Source: a virus
Virus record (IMG/VR): IMGVR_UViG_3300050821_002380
Location: 1 to 55,564 of that record
Length of the DNA stretch: 55,564 nucleotides
Direction: 5' to 3' (one strand)
Of this stretch, positions 47,855 through 55,564 are shown in pieces. The translations under genes were made by a program, and so were the position numbers. Numbering within the stretch: the stretch's first letter is position 1; every line of letters starts with the position of its first letter. Under the pieces are notes generated by a model. It searched no databases, was not told the origin of the DNA, and saw only the letters and a list, made by a program, of their open reading frames with translations.

Positions 47855-50800
47855 ATGCCAAAGAAGTGGATTCTCGCATTTCTGTTTCTGCTCGGCGGCT
47901 ATCCAGCTTTCGCGCAGCAGCCGATTACGACTGGCGGAAGCTCCTGCTCTCCGGCCACGAACTGTGCCGTCTACAGCGTGCAGGTAGACTCAGGTTCCGC
48001 TGGGTTTAGCGTGCAGGGAACGTGGACGGGCACGTTGAATTTTGAGGTTTCTGCCGACAACACGAACTTCGTAGCAGTGAGTTCGTTTCCACCAAACAGC
48101 ACAACTGGCGTCTCTACATCTGCCGCGAATGGAACATGGACGGCTTCCGTATCAGGAATGCTCACGTTTCGTGTTCGCGCATCGTCGGGATTCACGGGAA
48201 CGGCTACCGTCACTACCCAAATAAGCAGGGCGACCGCTGTAGCATCGCTTATCGGTGGGGGTGGAGGCGGCGGCTCCGGCCTCACCGGAACGCTCACCAG
48301 CCCGCAAGTGCCGTACGCAACAGGAGCGCACACGCTGGGAGATTCCGCGTTCGCGTACTATCCCACCGGCGGTGACCCGTCTACGCTGTGCGGGAGCGGG
48401 CAACCCTGCTGGCAGGTGGTGCATTCTGGCGAGGGAACGCTATCGTTTTGGCCGGATGGATTGAGCATCGTAAATGCGGCCGACGACGAATTTTCGTTCA
48501 CTTTGTTTGACAACGGGTTTGAGGAGGTCAATTTAGGGGCTTCCGCTACAGTTTCCAGGCTGGCGGGGGCCGCATTAACATTAGGAGCGAATGGGTCTGC
48601 GGGCGGTTCATTGCAATTGTCCGACGCCACCTCCGGCTCTTCCACCCTGAGCGTATCGGGAAGCACGCTGCTGGTGAACGGCTCTGCCGTGCCGACGACT
48701 GCGACGGGCGTGCTGGGTGAACCTGCTATTTATTCAAGCACGACTGCGTTGATGCCCTCATTGTGGGTCACCTATGCGAGTGCGTACACCGGCGCAGATG
48801 TGTGCGCGCGGATAGAAGCCGCCATTACCGCTATCGCTTCCGTTGGCGGGCAGGTTTTTGCCGATTTCCCCGAGGCTACCTACACCTGCGCGGGAGGATT
48901 CACGGTTACCGCTGGAATTCATGTTTCCATAGCTCCCATGACGCTCGTGGTAGGCGCCACCGTGAACGTATATTCCGTTGGGCGACTGACAGGAGCGGGA
49001 GGGGCTTCTACTTCCGCAATCGCCACGATCATTAAGGCGGGAACCAATCTGAATGCGCCAGTGATTAAGGCGGAAGATTCTGGTGGGTCGTCTTCCTTCT
49101 GGCACGAAGCAGAGATTTCATGGTTGAGAGTCGATGGTAACGCCTCAAATCAGTCGGCGGCTGCAAGCTGCCTGCTGGTGAATCAACCGGGCGAAGCTGG
49201 CTCCATCAACAACATCGTGGTCACCAACTGCGGCTCTTACGGCATCGAGGACGACGGAATCAACAGCGGCTCAACTGGCTGGAATAACCTCACCGTGCAG
49301 AACGGCACGGCTGGCGGCGGATTTTATTTCAACGCAGCGGTTGACGGCGTAAGCATGAACACCGTCCATGTCGATGCGTGCGTTGGACCCGCCGTGACAA
49401 TGAAGGCAGGCTCAGGAAGATTCTCGCTCAACGTGAACGGCTTCCAAGTGGAAGGCGGAAGTGTAACAGGTGCAGCGCCGGAAGTTTTCTTGATTGACGA
49501 AACAACGAGCGAAGGTTATCTCTCTGGCGGCAACATCAACGTGTCCAGTGTCGTGAGTGGTGTGGATTTTATCGAGCGCGTGAACGGTTCTGCCGGTAAC
49601 TTGCCCAGCATTAACTTCTGGGGCCGTGTCAACACGGGCGGCGACTACACGAATTTCTTCCACGACAATGTGAACAGCTATGTCGTGCCCGTCACGAGCG
49701 TTGCGTCGTCTCTGAATGAAGTATGGAATTACCATTTGAATTTCAGTGCAGCATCGCAGGGTGCGATTGCGCTACAACCGGGAACGATGACTCTCGCCAA
49801 CGGCGCGAATAATAACGTCGTTGTCAAGAACTCAGGGGGAGCTTCAAGCGGATATGCAAGCTCGCACGTCTTAGTATCCGGGCCAACGGGAGCCTTCAAT
49901 ATCACGGGCCTAGTAGGTGGTGTCGATTTCACAACAGGCAGCGTGGATGGGCATTTGCTCGTGATTGAGAATCCGACTACCCAAGTGATGACACTCTCGA
50001 ACTTAAACACAGGTTCGACGGCGGGCAATCGAATTCTTACAGGTACGGGTGCTGATTATGCGGTAGCCGCCGGTGCTTCTGCGATTTTGATGTATAACGT
50101 CGCCAACACTGAGTGGGATTTAATACTTGGGCCTGCGGGGGCGACTGGTGCGACTGGTGCTACCGGACCTACCGGATCCACTGGCGCAACTGGTGCTACA
50201 GGGGCGACCGGCGCTACGGGTGCAACAGGCGCGACTGGCGCTACTGGTCCCACTGGCAGCAACGGCACAAATGGAAGTAATGGCGCAACAGGTGCGACCG
50301 GTCCCACCGGCGCGACTGGCAGCACGGGCGCAAACGGCGGAGGTATCGTTACCTATTCAGGACTTCCGGTTGTGAGTGCAACCGCTTATGTTCCTTTAGG
50401 CGGAGATACTGTCGGTTCAACCACAGAAGCGAACGTGCAAATGGGCGCACCGTCCGCGTCACCTATCTCCAATTTGACGGTCGTATCAAGCGCCGTCCCC
50501 GGCACGGGAAACACGCTAGTTATCACTCTACGAGACAATGCAGCGTCGCAAGCACTTACTTGTACGATTACAGCGGCAGCGACTTCATGCACCGATTTCA
50601 CCCACAGTTTCACACCAGCGCAAGGAGATTTGCTGGACTGGCAGATTACTCCTACAGGTACCGTTGTTATCACCCCGAATATCCAAATCGCTGCGAGTTG
50701 GTCTACGCCTAGTACGGGAGCGGTCACAGACCTTGTGGCGGCTTGCCAGTCAACCATTGGAGCGGGCAACGGAAGTGCATACCCTCTAGCGCCATATATC

Positions 50801-51112
50801 GGTAACTCGACTAGCAACTCTTGCAATTCGGGTGGTACTACGACCATCGAAATGCCGATGACGCACACCTGTACAGCGCAAAATCTATATGTGGTGGCAG
50901 GAGTAGCAAGTTCTTCCTCGGGCACGACAGTCAAACTTTACGTTAACGGCTCCGCTACCGCTTTGGTAGCGGCGATTGGAACTGCAACAACTGGAAATGA
51001 CACCACGCATACTGTGTCGATTACGGCTGGGCAGACTTACTCGATTCGAGCTATTCCGGGTCAAGCAACTGACACACTTAGCACTGTTCACGCCGCATTT
51101 CAATGCAGATGA
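47855..51112 (+). CDS. Secreted collagen-like fibre/beta-helix protein (1085 aa)
   Basis: ATG 47855 follows the previous TAG. The N-terminus [20 protein letters not shown] is a Sec signal peptide with an AFA-Q cleavage site. Next are an Ig-like stretch, a pectate-lyase-like beta-helix from about residues 310-640, then Gly-X-Thr/Asn collagen-like triplets at 759-829. The C-terminal domain (830-1085) is beta-rich with Cys pairs, like trimerising heads of bacterial collagen-like surface proteins. It is placed with tail genes, but a signal peptide means export to the periplasm or outside before lysis, not cytoplasmic tail assembly. A secreted glycan-degrading or adhesion fibre fits. The catalytic site is not identified. 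Confidence 0.75.
50129..50343 (+). repeat. Collagen-like Gly-X-Y repeat (about 71 residues)
   Basis: Tandem 9-base units coding GAT, GPT, GST and GSN triplets (ggt gcg act type). They code Thr at most Y positions, the residue glycosylated in Bacillus BclA-type collagen proteins. A beta-helix precedes them. Confidence 0.9.
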
Positions 51113-54177: not shown

Positions 54178-55564
54178 TGAAGCGACTCTCTTGGCTCTTG
54201 CTTTTCCTCTTCGCAATTCCCGTTCACGCTCAATATCCGTGGAGTGGCATTCTCAGCGCATCGCGGGCGCTTGATTGGTCAACTGCTGGCATCCCCGGAG
54301 GCATTCCTGTAGGCACGCAGTCTGGGTCAACCATCACTTCCACGGGCAGCGACCAGACTTCTGCTATTCAGACCGCCATCAATACGTGCTCTGCGGCAGG
54401 GTCGGTCGGCAACGAGAAGTTCGTCCAACTGGCAGCGGGAACTTTCACGATCAATGGCGTGCTGCAAGTAAAGAACTTCTGCTACTTGAACGGCGCAGGC
54501 GGAAACCAGACCATTTTCAGCATCCACAGCACCGCTGGAACTTCCGTCATTCAACTCGGCACGGCAACGTCTGCCAGTGGGCCAAACATCTCTGGCGACG
54601 TTTCGATTACCAGCGGCACGGCGGCAGGCTCATCGAGCATCGTTGTTTCAAGCGCCTCTGGCGTTGTGGCAGGCACAACTTATCTGCGAATCAGCGAATT
54701 GAACGATTCGAGCTTCGTTTCCATTCAAGGCGACTTCGGCACATGCAATTTCTGCGATGGAGGATTCGGCTACAACGGAACGCGGGTCAGGAACCAGATT
54801 TCTCTCGTTACGAACGTCTCAGGGACGACACTGACGATTTCGCCGCCCTTGATGCTTGGCTACACGCATACGCCTCTGGCGACTCCGTTCACGATGACGG
54901 CGCAATATGCCGGGGTCGAGAACCTGCAAATCTATTCCAACAATACCGGGGCAGGCGACAACATCCACATGGGGATGTGTGCCTACTGCTTCGTCTCTGG
55001 CGTCGAGGGCAATTACACCGATGGCGACCATGTAACGACCGACTTCGCCTATCATGGCATGATTGTCAACAGCTACTTCTCGAACGCGCAGCTTCACACA
55101 TCAGGAACCTACGATTCCTGCATCGCCATCCGCAATTCTACGACTTACACGCTGGTACAAAACAACATCCTCGAAAGATTGCACCTGTCCGTTGTCGCGG
55201 AGTGGGGCGGCGGGGGAAACGTCATCAGCTATAACTATCTGTTCGGCAACTTTGACAATTACTCCTACAACTTCATGTCGAGCGACCTCAACACGCACGG
55301 CGCGCACCCGCAGTTGAATCTCTATGAGGGGAATATCGGGGCTGCTTTGAACTTCGATAGCGGATGGGGTAGCGGCAGCGACCTGACGACATTTCGCAAC
55401 TGGTCAAAAGGAACGACGCTATTGTGCAATCCGCAGACGGTTGGCCGCGCTGTGGTGGTGTGCTCGCCGAACTATCCAACCTCTGGCTATTACGCTTTCC
55501 AAGAGAACAACGCATTTTTGTTTGGCTTCCTCAACTCGAATCTGAACCAAGTGGGAGATGTAGC
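54177..55564 (+). CDS. Secreted beta-helix protein, N-terminal part (continues at base 1)
   Basis: ATG 54177 shares its A with the preceding TAA. Signal peptide [18 protein letters not shown] with A|Q cleavage. Then a pectate-lyase-like right-handed beta-helix beginning about residue 60 ('SDQTSAIQTAINTC', 'VQLAAGTFTINGVLQVKNFC') with regular 'N-x-I' stacks such as 'YTLVQNNILERLHLSVVAEW' and 'NVISYNYLFGNFDNYSYN'. The frame has no stop before the window end and continues at base 1. A secreted glycan-binding or depolymerase-type protein is likely; no catalytic triad was assigned. Confidence 0.85.
   Translation, partial: MKRLSWLLLFLFAIPVHAQYPWSGILSASRALDWSTAGIPGGIPVGTQSGSTITSTGSDQTSAIQTAINTCSAAGSVGNEKFVQLAAGTFTINGVLQVKNFCYLNGAGGNQTIFSIHSTAGTSVIQLGTATSASGPNISGDVSITSGTAAGSSSIVVSSASGVVAGTTYLRISELNDSSFVSIQGDFGTCNFCDGGFGYNGTRVRNQISLVTNVSGTTLTISPPLMLGYTHTPLATPFTMTAQYAGVENLQIYSNNTGAGDNIHMGMCAYCFVSGVEGNYTDGDHVTTDFAYHGMIVNSYFSNAQLHTSGTYDSCIAIRNSTTYTLVQNNILERLHLSVVAEWGGGGNVISYNYLFGNFDNYSYNFMSSDLNTHGAHPQLNLYEGNIGAALNFDSGWGSGSDLTTFRNWSKGTTLLCNPQTVGRAVVVCSPNYPTSGYYAFQENNAFLFGFLNSNLNQVGDV
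55467..55564. repeat. Right copy of 98-bp terminal direct repeat
   Basis: Exact copy of bases 1-98. Removing it gives a circle of 55,466 bp. Whether the virion DNA is circularly permuted (headful) or has fixed ends cannot be told from this. Confidence 0.95.

Follow-up and report, generated by a model that had tools for sequence, protein, structure and literature searches.

Tail fibres are held to fold and attach in the cytoplasm, and virion assembly is thought to be wholly intracellular. Filamentous phages export their virion coat proteins pIII and pVIII through Sec before assembly, but they are non-lytic and extruded through the membrane, whereas the phage described here is tailed. The Sec-exported endolysin Lys44 of fOg44 and the SAR endolysins also leave through the Sec machinery of the host ahead of lysis, as we propose here, and are lysis enzymes, not fibres (PMC6116005). 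The esterase gp40 of Xanthomonas phage PBR31, a single enzyme proposed to aid lysis, is likewise unlike a module of fibres (PMC10975493). For variable proteins, a missing signal peptide has been taken to favour an origin in phages (PMC6199706). Part of an open-access literature search on exported fibres yielded no related paper among the matches listed. The Tunturiibacter phages Tunturi 1, 2 and 4 resemble our locus in carrying neighbouring fibre or structural genes with signal peptides, as scored here, and the term "signal peptide" is absent from the main text of the paper on these phages (PMC11924767).

The window, i.e., the whole stretch of DNA analysed, spans positions 1 to 55,564 of IMG/VR record IMGVR_UViG_3300050821_002380, from a soil podovirus. 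It carries an exact 98-base direct terminal repeat (55467..55564, identical to 1-98), through which the gene at 54177..55466 (+), its first 430 codons including the signal peptide, runs on in frame into 1..1041 (+) to give a product of 776 aa. A sequence-only reading had placed four open reading frames at 47855, 51431, 51784 and 54177, the last joined to 1-1041; these positions hold, and the join is confirmed by the repeat, across which the reading frame is kept. All window genes given here lie on the plus strand. The first exported fibre (47855..51112, 1085 aa) consists of a signal peptide (47855..47914), a domain A with a Cys pair (stretch modelled, 47915..48289), a collagen-like part at residues 762-817 and a further C-terminal part; it matches the domain A HMM, Pfam Collagen (1.2e-6) and tail-fibre PHROGs. 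It is followed by a small helix-turn-helix protein without a signal peptide (51103..51423; phrog_4779, transcriptional regulator, 4.6e-4), a small exported protein of 117 aa whose mature part has no Cys (51431..51784), and the second exported fibre (51784..54177, 797 aa; Pfam Collagen 5.1e-15, tail-fibre PHROGs to 9.8e-32), in which a signal peptide of uncertain site precedes a domain B (stretch modelled, 51838..52287) and a collagen-like stalk. The tail-fibre PHROG and Pfam matches of both fibres centre on the collagen repeats. The description of the module as consecutive fibre-type genes stands for 47855 and 51784 and fails for 51431, for which neither Pfam nor PHROG gave a match at E 0.1; fibre-type repeats and tail-fibre matches are absent from 54177 as well. 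No endolysin family appears among the Pfam and PHROG matches of the module genes, i.e., no muralytic domain was found. Upstream lies a large Cys-poor, coiled-coil-like protein of 654 aa (45595..47559) with no confident Pfam or PHROG family; judged by eye, the relative G002 may have a protein of like kind and position ahead of its module.

Signal peptides were scored with a home-made log-odds scorer (not SignalP) based on amino-acid frequencies. The four module products score 19.4 (47855), 19.0 (51431), 15.7 (51784) and 19.8 (54177), and the next best of the 76 window ORFs reaches 11.1, so that the Sec signal peptides proposed from the sequence were recovered on all four. Each has a basic n-region, a hydrophobic core and a -3,-1 site, the site being uncertain for 51784. 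The earlier suggestion that Gln directly follows the cleavage Ala in all four holds firmly for 47855 and 54177; it is plausible for 51431 (AEA|QQ is allowed; the scorer chooses SMA|AEA) and doubtful for 51784, where SA|Q places Gln at -3, disfavoured by the -3,-1 rule, and the scorer chooses AQG|T. The threshold of 13, which was chosen after the scores of the window were known, would miss PhoA (12.1) and Tunturi 2 gp13 (12.2). Across 26 contigs, internal Met pseudo-starts reach it in 4 of 3528 cases and shuffled N-termini in 24 of 1640, and we rejected chance as the origin of the signal peptides. ORFs were called greedily by length, and some starts or frames are wrong; in G009, for instance, the call at +13450 masks a signal peptide that belongs to a start further on, visible as L158.

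Relatives were collected with the major capsid protein as bait (36682..37683; phrog_9953, 3.4e-22). Signal-peptide genes occur at this place in 24 of the 26 related contigs, window included, and the two contigs without them end less than 7 kb past the start of the capsid gene; related phages, for which the sequence-only reading had proposed a search, share the trait. This agreement also led us to reject host genes misjoined to a phage contig. Signal peptides are found on 65 of 105 long genes at the module place versus 8 of 384 elsewhere, several exported proteins per phage are frequent, and in 45 of the 82 module proteins the residue directly behind the predicted cleavage site is Gln. The contig and Cys counts omit G001 (100% identical terminase, ending before the module), G010 (module near-identical to that of G012) and G003 (near-identical to G002), and four short contigs (G020 and G030-G032) stand outside the counts for relatives. 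In G024, the domain-B protein at the module place has no signal peptide and the sole signal-peptide gene there encodes 113 aa, which counts against fibres held in the periplasm.

Oxidised exported proteins tend towards an even number of cysteines, a rule cited in the literature (PMC7678975). Taking one protein per cluster, we observe even:odd ratios of 45:9 for the mature exported module proteins versus 141:134 for other genes, and six further phages, in which the model of this capsid finds no match, give 17:3 versus 53:60 (unclustered). This bias suggests that the proteins pass through an oxidising compartment. It belongs to the group of relatives and not to the window alone, whose four exported proteins have 15, 0, 10 and 23 Cys, odd in two of the three that contain any (15 and 23); these odd counts speak against export followed by oxidation. 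Close Cys pairs in exported proteins number 161, which does not clearly exceed chance (138.7 expected; maximum of 162 among 200 shuffles), and early genes are as Cys-rich (22 per 1000 residues) as exported genes (20-21), both of which weigh against the same explanation. The structural block shows an odd excess without explanation (11:30, one protein per cluster).

In the window, domains A and B follow the signal peptides, and their likeness to phage proteins is at fold level only. Domain A (AlphaFold2 pLDDT 80.6) is modelled as a beta-sandwich whose best Foldseek row is YomS of prophage SPBc2 (6i5o; E 2.9e-3, TM 0.63/0.69), and the modelled domain B (pLDDT 85.9) has a fold like that at the N-terminal end of two proteins of cyanophage A-1(L), the neck fibre and the tail fibre (VIA-align Z 9.1 and 8.3). 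For neither domain did Foldseek return a row at E 0.001 or better, and this weakness of the predicted fold matches counts against a docking role. The Cys pair of domain A is present in 32 of 36 exported copies versus 0 of 4 non-exported copies; L146 and L148, kept out of these counts, both read as lacking signal peptide and Cys pair. Domain A with a signal peptide also occurs in phages without this capsid, which sits badly with docking to a single, specific virion protein. Clear homology to a conventional fibre N-terminus is confined to two phages, G335 (by phrog_1640) and G338 (by alignment), while the window fibres carry A and B instead. The mature N-terminus of the G335 and G338 proteins is homologous to the N-terminal domain of phrog_1640-type tail fibres (e.g., gp18 of Burkholderia phage BcepC6B), and the first residue behind the predicted cleavage site lines up with residue 2 in four tail fibres of the conventional kind; these start with the domain, without a signal peptide and with 0 Cys in it, whereas each exported copy has 2.

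Searches for wider distribution returned little. Among 50,697 phage records, the full 47855 protein matched one and the domain A and B peptides none, nor did the N-terminus of the G022 fibre match in phage records. In the records of three relatives, 47855 found nothing up to E 10, though domain A is there by HMM. Single-protein patterns for 51784 and 47855 gave no relatives among viral contigs, a domain A pattern gave 164 pattern matches in genome contigs with 0 confirmed, and the domain A HMM matched 2 of the 299 genomes of the class searched. A domain-B scan with closer alignment gave 10 loci, and at least 9 of the 10 contigs carrying them were not new, having been collected before or found with domain A.

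The 776-aa product of 54177 has a family in 32 of the 299 genomes of that class, and shares 47% identity over 677 aligned columns with L186/L199, one and the same gene of an Acidobacteriota MAG. Its cellular relatives are mostly exported proteins adjoining Acidobacteriota exopolysaccharide genes (37 of 43 usable neighbouring ORFs scanned). L186 has a sub-threshold pectate-lyase-like Pfam match, and the two pieces of 54177 have none. The capsid protein was not found in the 299 genomes, nor in the 4 MAGs with 54177 relatives. In setting alone, 54177 and these relatives resemble WceF of Pantoea stewartii, an exported beta-helix, tailspike-like enzyme of an exopolysaccharide operon; WceF is cellular and uses Tat, whereas 54177 is on a phage and has a Sec-type signal (PMC7949094). 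The 54177 product also has no docking domain, which we counted against our explanation.

In the cultured phages, the home-made scorer finds signal peptides on adjoining fibre-type or structural genes of Tunturi 1 (five counterpart genes examined), Tunturi 2 and Tunturi 4; the survey covered Tunturi 1 to 4. In Tunturi 4, 2 of the 14 scanned genes for tail and structural proteins bear one, and a conventional tail fibre is retained alongside the exported ones, which counts against our explanation. Tunturi 3 has none on 22 structural-block genes scanned from its first half, and two small reverse-strand genes with a signal peptide. A mere by-product of infecting Acidobacteriota was rejected on Tunturi 3 (0 of 22) and Tunturi 4 (2 of 14). 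Unlike the window, Tunturi 2 (24 proteins tested) and Tunturi 4 (4 proteins tested) showed no match to 54177 or, at E 0.01, to domain A or B. Gp14 of Tunturi_2 is annotated as a "pectin lyase".

Predicted export of the module proteins is well supported by sequence, and beyond the window as well, since it is conserved in relatives, bears the even-Cys signature, and recurs with other capsid types and in cultured Acidobacteriota phages. We infer that it takes place in infected cells, of a host that is probably an acidobacterium. Host Sec machinery and signal peptidase would carry the proteins into the periplasm, where their cysteines would be oxidised. The mature N-termini of 47855 and 51784 would be domains of the kind that attaches phage fibres to virions; most likely, these two are receptor-binding fibres kept in the periplasm until lysis, when the inner membrane fails and they join particles, and 54177 works unattached on the matrix of the cell itself, aiding egress and spread. 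Joining after lysis fits the two fibres because their mature N-termini appear to be phage-type, docking-like domains, and the fate of a free depolymerase would fit 54177. We consider the chances evenly balanced that the module as a whole is such a set of Sec-exported, mostly Cys-paired fibre or polysaccharide-active proteins, with fibres joined to virions at lysis and 54177 free. We know of no precedent for a cytoplasmic virion meeting periplasmic fibres.

A less probable but still serious reading is that all exported proteins act free, as soluble exopolysaccharide-binding or -degrading proteins released by lysis or secretion and never part of the virion, the docking-like N-termini being ancestral or binding the host matrix. 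The likeness of 54177 to proteins of Acidobacteriota exopolysaccharide loci, the occurrence of domain A in phages without this capsid, and the pectin lyase of Tunturi 2 together with the pectate-lyase-like Pfam matches that exported proteins show in two further phages (one just above the curated cut-off) all favour it, as does WceF, an exported tailspike-like enzyme from an exopolysaccharide operon (PMC7949094). Against it, the proteins are laid out like virion fibres, the docking-like domains sitting precisely where the mature chain begins and diverse sequences following them. Moreover, no other fibre-like gene appeared among those window genes that were put through the family scan, and on this reading the virion would have no recognised receptor-binding protein.

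We consider it improbable that the proteins form a coat on the infected cell or on its debris, where they would mask receptors and prevent superinfection or the loss of progeny to debris. The phage lipoprotein Llp of T5 is a model for such masking, export during infection could place receptor-binding domains on the host surface, and there are often several exported proteins per phage; against this, an unsystematic look noticed no surface anchor in the fibre signal peptides, and the size and diversity of the proteins seem beyond the needs of masking. Very improbable, in our judgement, is that ordinary fibres made in the cytoplasm carry these hydrophobic N-termini as uncleaved anchors or as segments for insertion into the virion: cleavage rests on prediction and the 51784 site is weak, but the frequent Gln behind the predicted site, the even-Cys bias that implies an oxidising compartment, the domain A copies lacking both signal peptide and Cys pair, and the G335/G338 domain starting exactly behind the predicted site all argue against this reading.

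Returning to fibres that join virions at lysis, the general form of the proposal is a two-compartment assembly, in which cytoplasmic heads and tails would be met at lysis by Sec-exported, disulfide-bonded fibres that dock on them, a strategy shared by soil phages from several capsid lineages, at least some phages of Acidobacteriota among them; we hold this tentatively, at slightly less than even chances. If true, virion assembly would gain a second, extracytoplasmic stage, fibre evolution could draw on the secreted proteins of hosts, and annotation would go astray where it classes genes of this kind with bacterial exoproteins. The cultured Tunturi 1, 2 and 4 make this proposed arrangement, which would be new, testable now.

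The window is bounded by an exact direct terminal repeat of 98 bases, which gives 55,466 bases for a circular form. Its terminase (phrog_2), major capsid protein (phrog_9953), collagen-type fibres and SU10-type portal (Pfam PF23899, E 5e-6, under the curated cut-off) suggest by sequence a podovirus-like phage. The sequence-only reading had proposed Sec signal peptides on the products of genes 47855, 51431, 51784 and 54177, the last with a 776-aa product whose reading frame crosses the terminal repeat into 1-1041. All four indeed carry good signal peptides, scoring 15.7-19.8 against 11.1 for the next best of 76 called window ORFs, on a home-made log-odds scorer based on amino-acid frequencies. 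The accompanying claim of a Gln after the cleavage Ala in each product stood less uniformly: the 51784 site is doubtful, with Gln at -3, and 51431, a 117-aa product without a family match, has two possible sites. A small HTH regulator-like gene (51103-51423, + strand) lies between two of the exported-protein genes. Elsewhere in the window, the product of 2558-3217 (+ strand) combines a motif of twin-arginine type with a Cys resembling that of a lipobox (TRRSFIQ ... ASGC) and has no Pfam or PHROG match. It has counterparts at +17218 (G004) and +18583 (G026) bases from the capsid gene of two related contigs and is perhaps a Tat lipoprotein common to these phages.

Searching viral contigs with the capsid protein gave 54 loci (34-100% identity). 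We fetched 28 related contigs and based counts on 26 sequences including the window, omitting G001 (which stops before the module of signal-peptide genes), G010 (module near-identical to G012) and G003 (near-identical to G002); four short contigs lay outside the fetched set. Related phages, for which a search had been suggested, do have signal-peptide genes at that place downstream of the capsid gene: at a threshold of 13, chosen after the window scores were known, 24 of the 26 contain at least one same-strand gene starting 9.5-23.5 kb downstream, and 21 contain at least two, with a maximum of eight. The two contigs without such genes end less than 7 kb past the capsid gene start, and the sole qualifying gene of G024, among the 24, encodes a 113-aa protein. 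Genes of at least 250 aa reach 13 in 65/105 cases in the module stretch versus 8/384 elsewhere, and all called ORFs in 82/220 versus 29/1484; controls reach it in 4/3528 internal Met starts and 24/1640 shuffled N-termini. Gln directly follows the predicted cleavage site in 45 of the 82 module proteins. On the reverse strand, small genes of G002, G006, G009 and G016 have lipoprotein-like signal peptides with a box ending Gly-Cys, and are perhaps spanin or exclusion proteins.

Oxidised exported proteins favor even Cys numbers (a rule given in PMC7678975), which provides a test of export independent of the signal peptide. With one protein per sequence cluster, even:odd counts are 45:9 for exported module proteins (P = 7e-7), 20:14 for module genes without a signal peptide and 141:134 for other genes; the structural block of the 26 contigs shows an odd excess (11:30). 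Exported proteins have 20-21 Cys per 1000 residues, more than the 7 of structural proteins, though early and other genes reach 22; close Cys pairs in exported proteins (161 versus 138.7 at random placement; top shuffle 162) are not clearly above chance. The mature counts of the four window products are 15, 0, 10 and 23, so the window alone does not display the even-Cys bias.

With respect to the N-termini, we observe two recurrent domains immediately after the signal peptide, domain A (47855) and domain B (51784), modeled at mean pLDDT 80.6 and 85.9. Foldseek gave no row at E 0.001 for either model; the nearest fold to domain A is YomS of prophage SPBc2 (E 2.9e-3, TM 0.63/0.69). For domain B, VIA-align ranks the neck fibre of cyanophage A-1(L) at the top, by its N-terminal part (Z 9.1, rmsd 2.5, 92 aligned). 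Further phage rows are the A-1(L) tail fibre (Z 8.3), the Ur-lambda tail tip (Z 8.3) and the XM1 neck (Z 8.0), interspersed with unrelated proteins of similar Z. Foldseek rows for the domain B model (m4c60b9930c1a) include numerous intradiol dioxygenases; one of these, PDB 9yh9, comes from a soil survey and is named a "phage catechol 1,2-dioxygenase". Domain B also occurs in three of four signal-peptide genes lying directly after the capsid gene, outside the main module (G008 +1602, G023 +1648, scoring only 12.0, and G025 +2560; not G025 +1582).

Signal peptides are missing from domain B proteins of G024 (445 aa, 0 Cys), G015 (575 aa, 1 Cys) and G021 (531 aa, 5 Cys), as well as G002 (L006 ~11200-11350, - strand), whose gene has no clear ordinary start codon past the likely ribosome-binding site. 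Domain A lacks one at loci L150, L154, L157/L159 and L146/L148 and in Synechococcus phage S-SRP01, where it is internal to the protein and without the Cys pair. That pair is present in 32/36 exported versus 0/4 non-exported copies (Fisher P = 8e-4; de-duplicated, L146/L148 outside the table). An HMM found domain A in 2/299 bacterial genomes of an Acidobacteriota class (G079, G240; L203-L205), possibly in prophage remnants.

The capsid model matched none of 12 domain-A phage records tested with it, 11 of which (all except L154) encode a domain-A protein with a signal peptide. In six such capsid-negative phages, proteins of at least 150 aa, unclustered, have even:odd Cys counts of 17:3 when exported (one without Cys) and 53:60 when not (30 without Cys). 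The clearest case, by sequence, of a signal peptide ahead of a known fibre domain is that of G335 and G338. The mature N-terminus of G335 matches tail-protein family phrog_1640 (positions 2-119, E 1e-9), a type of N-terminal domain found in 29 phage records; in BcepC6B gp18, as annotated, the match begins with residue 2. In both G335 and G338, the first post-cleavage residue aligns with residue 2 of four conventional fibres, as if a signal peptide stood in place of the start Met. Over the initial 115 residues, none of the four conventional fibres has a Cys, and each exported one has two.

Furthermore, two cultured podoviruses that infect Tunturiibacter psychrotolerans X5P2 (Acidobacteriota), Tunturi 1 and 2, carry signal peptides on gp12, gp14, gp16 and gp17 (14.8-20.6) and gp13 (12.2). 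A scan of 24 Tunturi 2 genes gave these 5, whose mature Cys counts are 20 (gp12), 10 (gp13), 20 (gp14), 1 (gp16) and 34 (gp17). In the siphovirus Tunturi 4, a scan of 14 tail and structural genes gave two that qualify (gp113, 8 mature Cys; gp114, 20), fibre gp111 does not, and in Tunturi 3 none of 22 structural-block genes scanned does. Tests of 24 Tunturi 2 and four Tunturi 4 proteins against domains A and B (cut-off E 0.01; best value 0.048) and against 54177 gave no match, so the trait extends past one domain family. The phrase "signal peptide" is absent from the main text of the Tunturi paper (PMC11924767).

Gene 54177 has cellular relatives: a pattern scan of genome contigs from its alignment confirmed five loci, all Acidobacteriota MAGs by title, and an HMM matched 32/299 genomes of that class at 1e-10. 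The closest relative shows 47% identity over 677 columns. Signal-peptide scores reach at least 13 in 8 and at least 10.6 in 12 of 17 cellular loci; among low scorers, two are one gene (7.5) and three fall below 0, where the ORF taken as longest probably has its start too far upstream, as seen for L189. Most of these loci share a similar motif after the cleavage site (G-I/L ... R .. N/D-WS .. G). Among 37 neighbor ORFs the most frequent Pfam families are group 1 glycosyltransferases (7), methyltransferases (3), O-antigen ligase (3), GDP-mannose dehydratase (2) and GHMP kinase (2), and polysaccharide synthesis families occur singly, so 54177 is a phage relative of exported proteins from exopolysaccharide loci. 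Two members of this Acidobacteriota family (L186-L202) gave no Pfam match and a sub-threshold pectate-lyase-like one, respectively. A known analogue in setting is the tailspike-like Pantoea WceF, which is exported by Tat (PMC7949094). These relatives suggest an Acidobacteriota host for the window phage; the capsid protein was found in 0/299 genomes of that class.

Conservation, Cys parity, N-terminal domains, phages with other capsids and the cultured Tunturi phages together support the export step: most likely, the host Sec system exports the module proteins, the periplasm is where they would be oxidised, and lysis would bring them together with virions and matrix. Fibres with docking-like N-termini would then attach to virions, and the 54177 product would act free. 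The main rival is that no exported module protein ever joins a virion; the occurrence of domain A in phages without this capsid speaks for it, or else for a docking site that many kinds of tail share.

Filamentous phage coat proteins and lipoproteins are among Sec-exported phage proteins. Endolysins (PMC6116005) and a phage esterase with a signal peptide (PMC10975493) are published examples. Among matches listed from the open-access literature searched, with subscription papers mostly outside it, none reports Sec-exported tail fibres. A tail-fibre module is in itself of a known kind; extracytoplasmic assembly, if true, would make this one categorically new.
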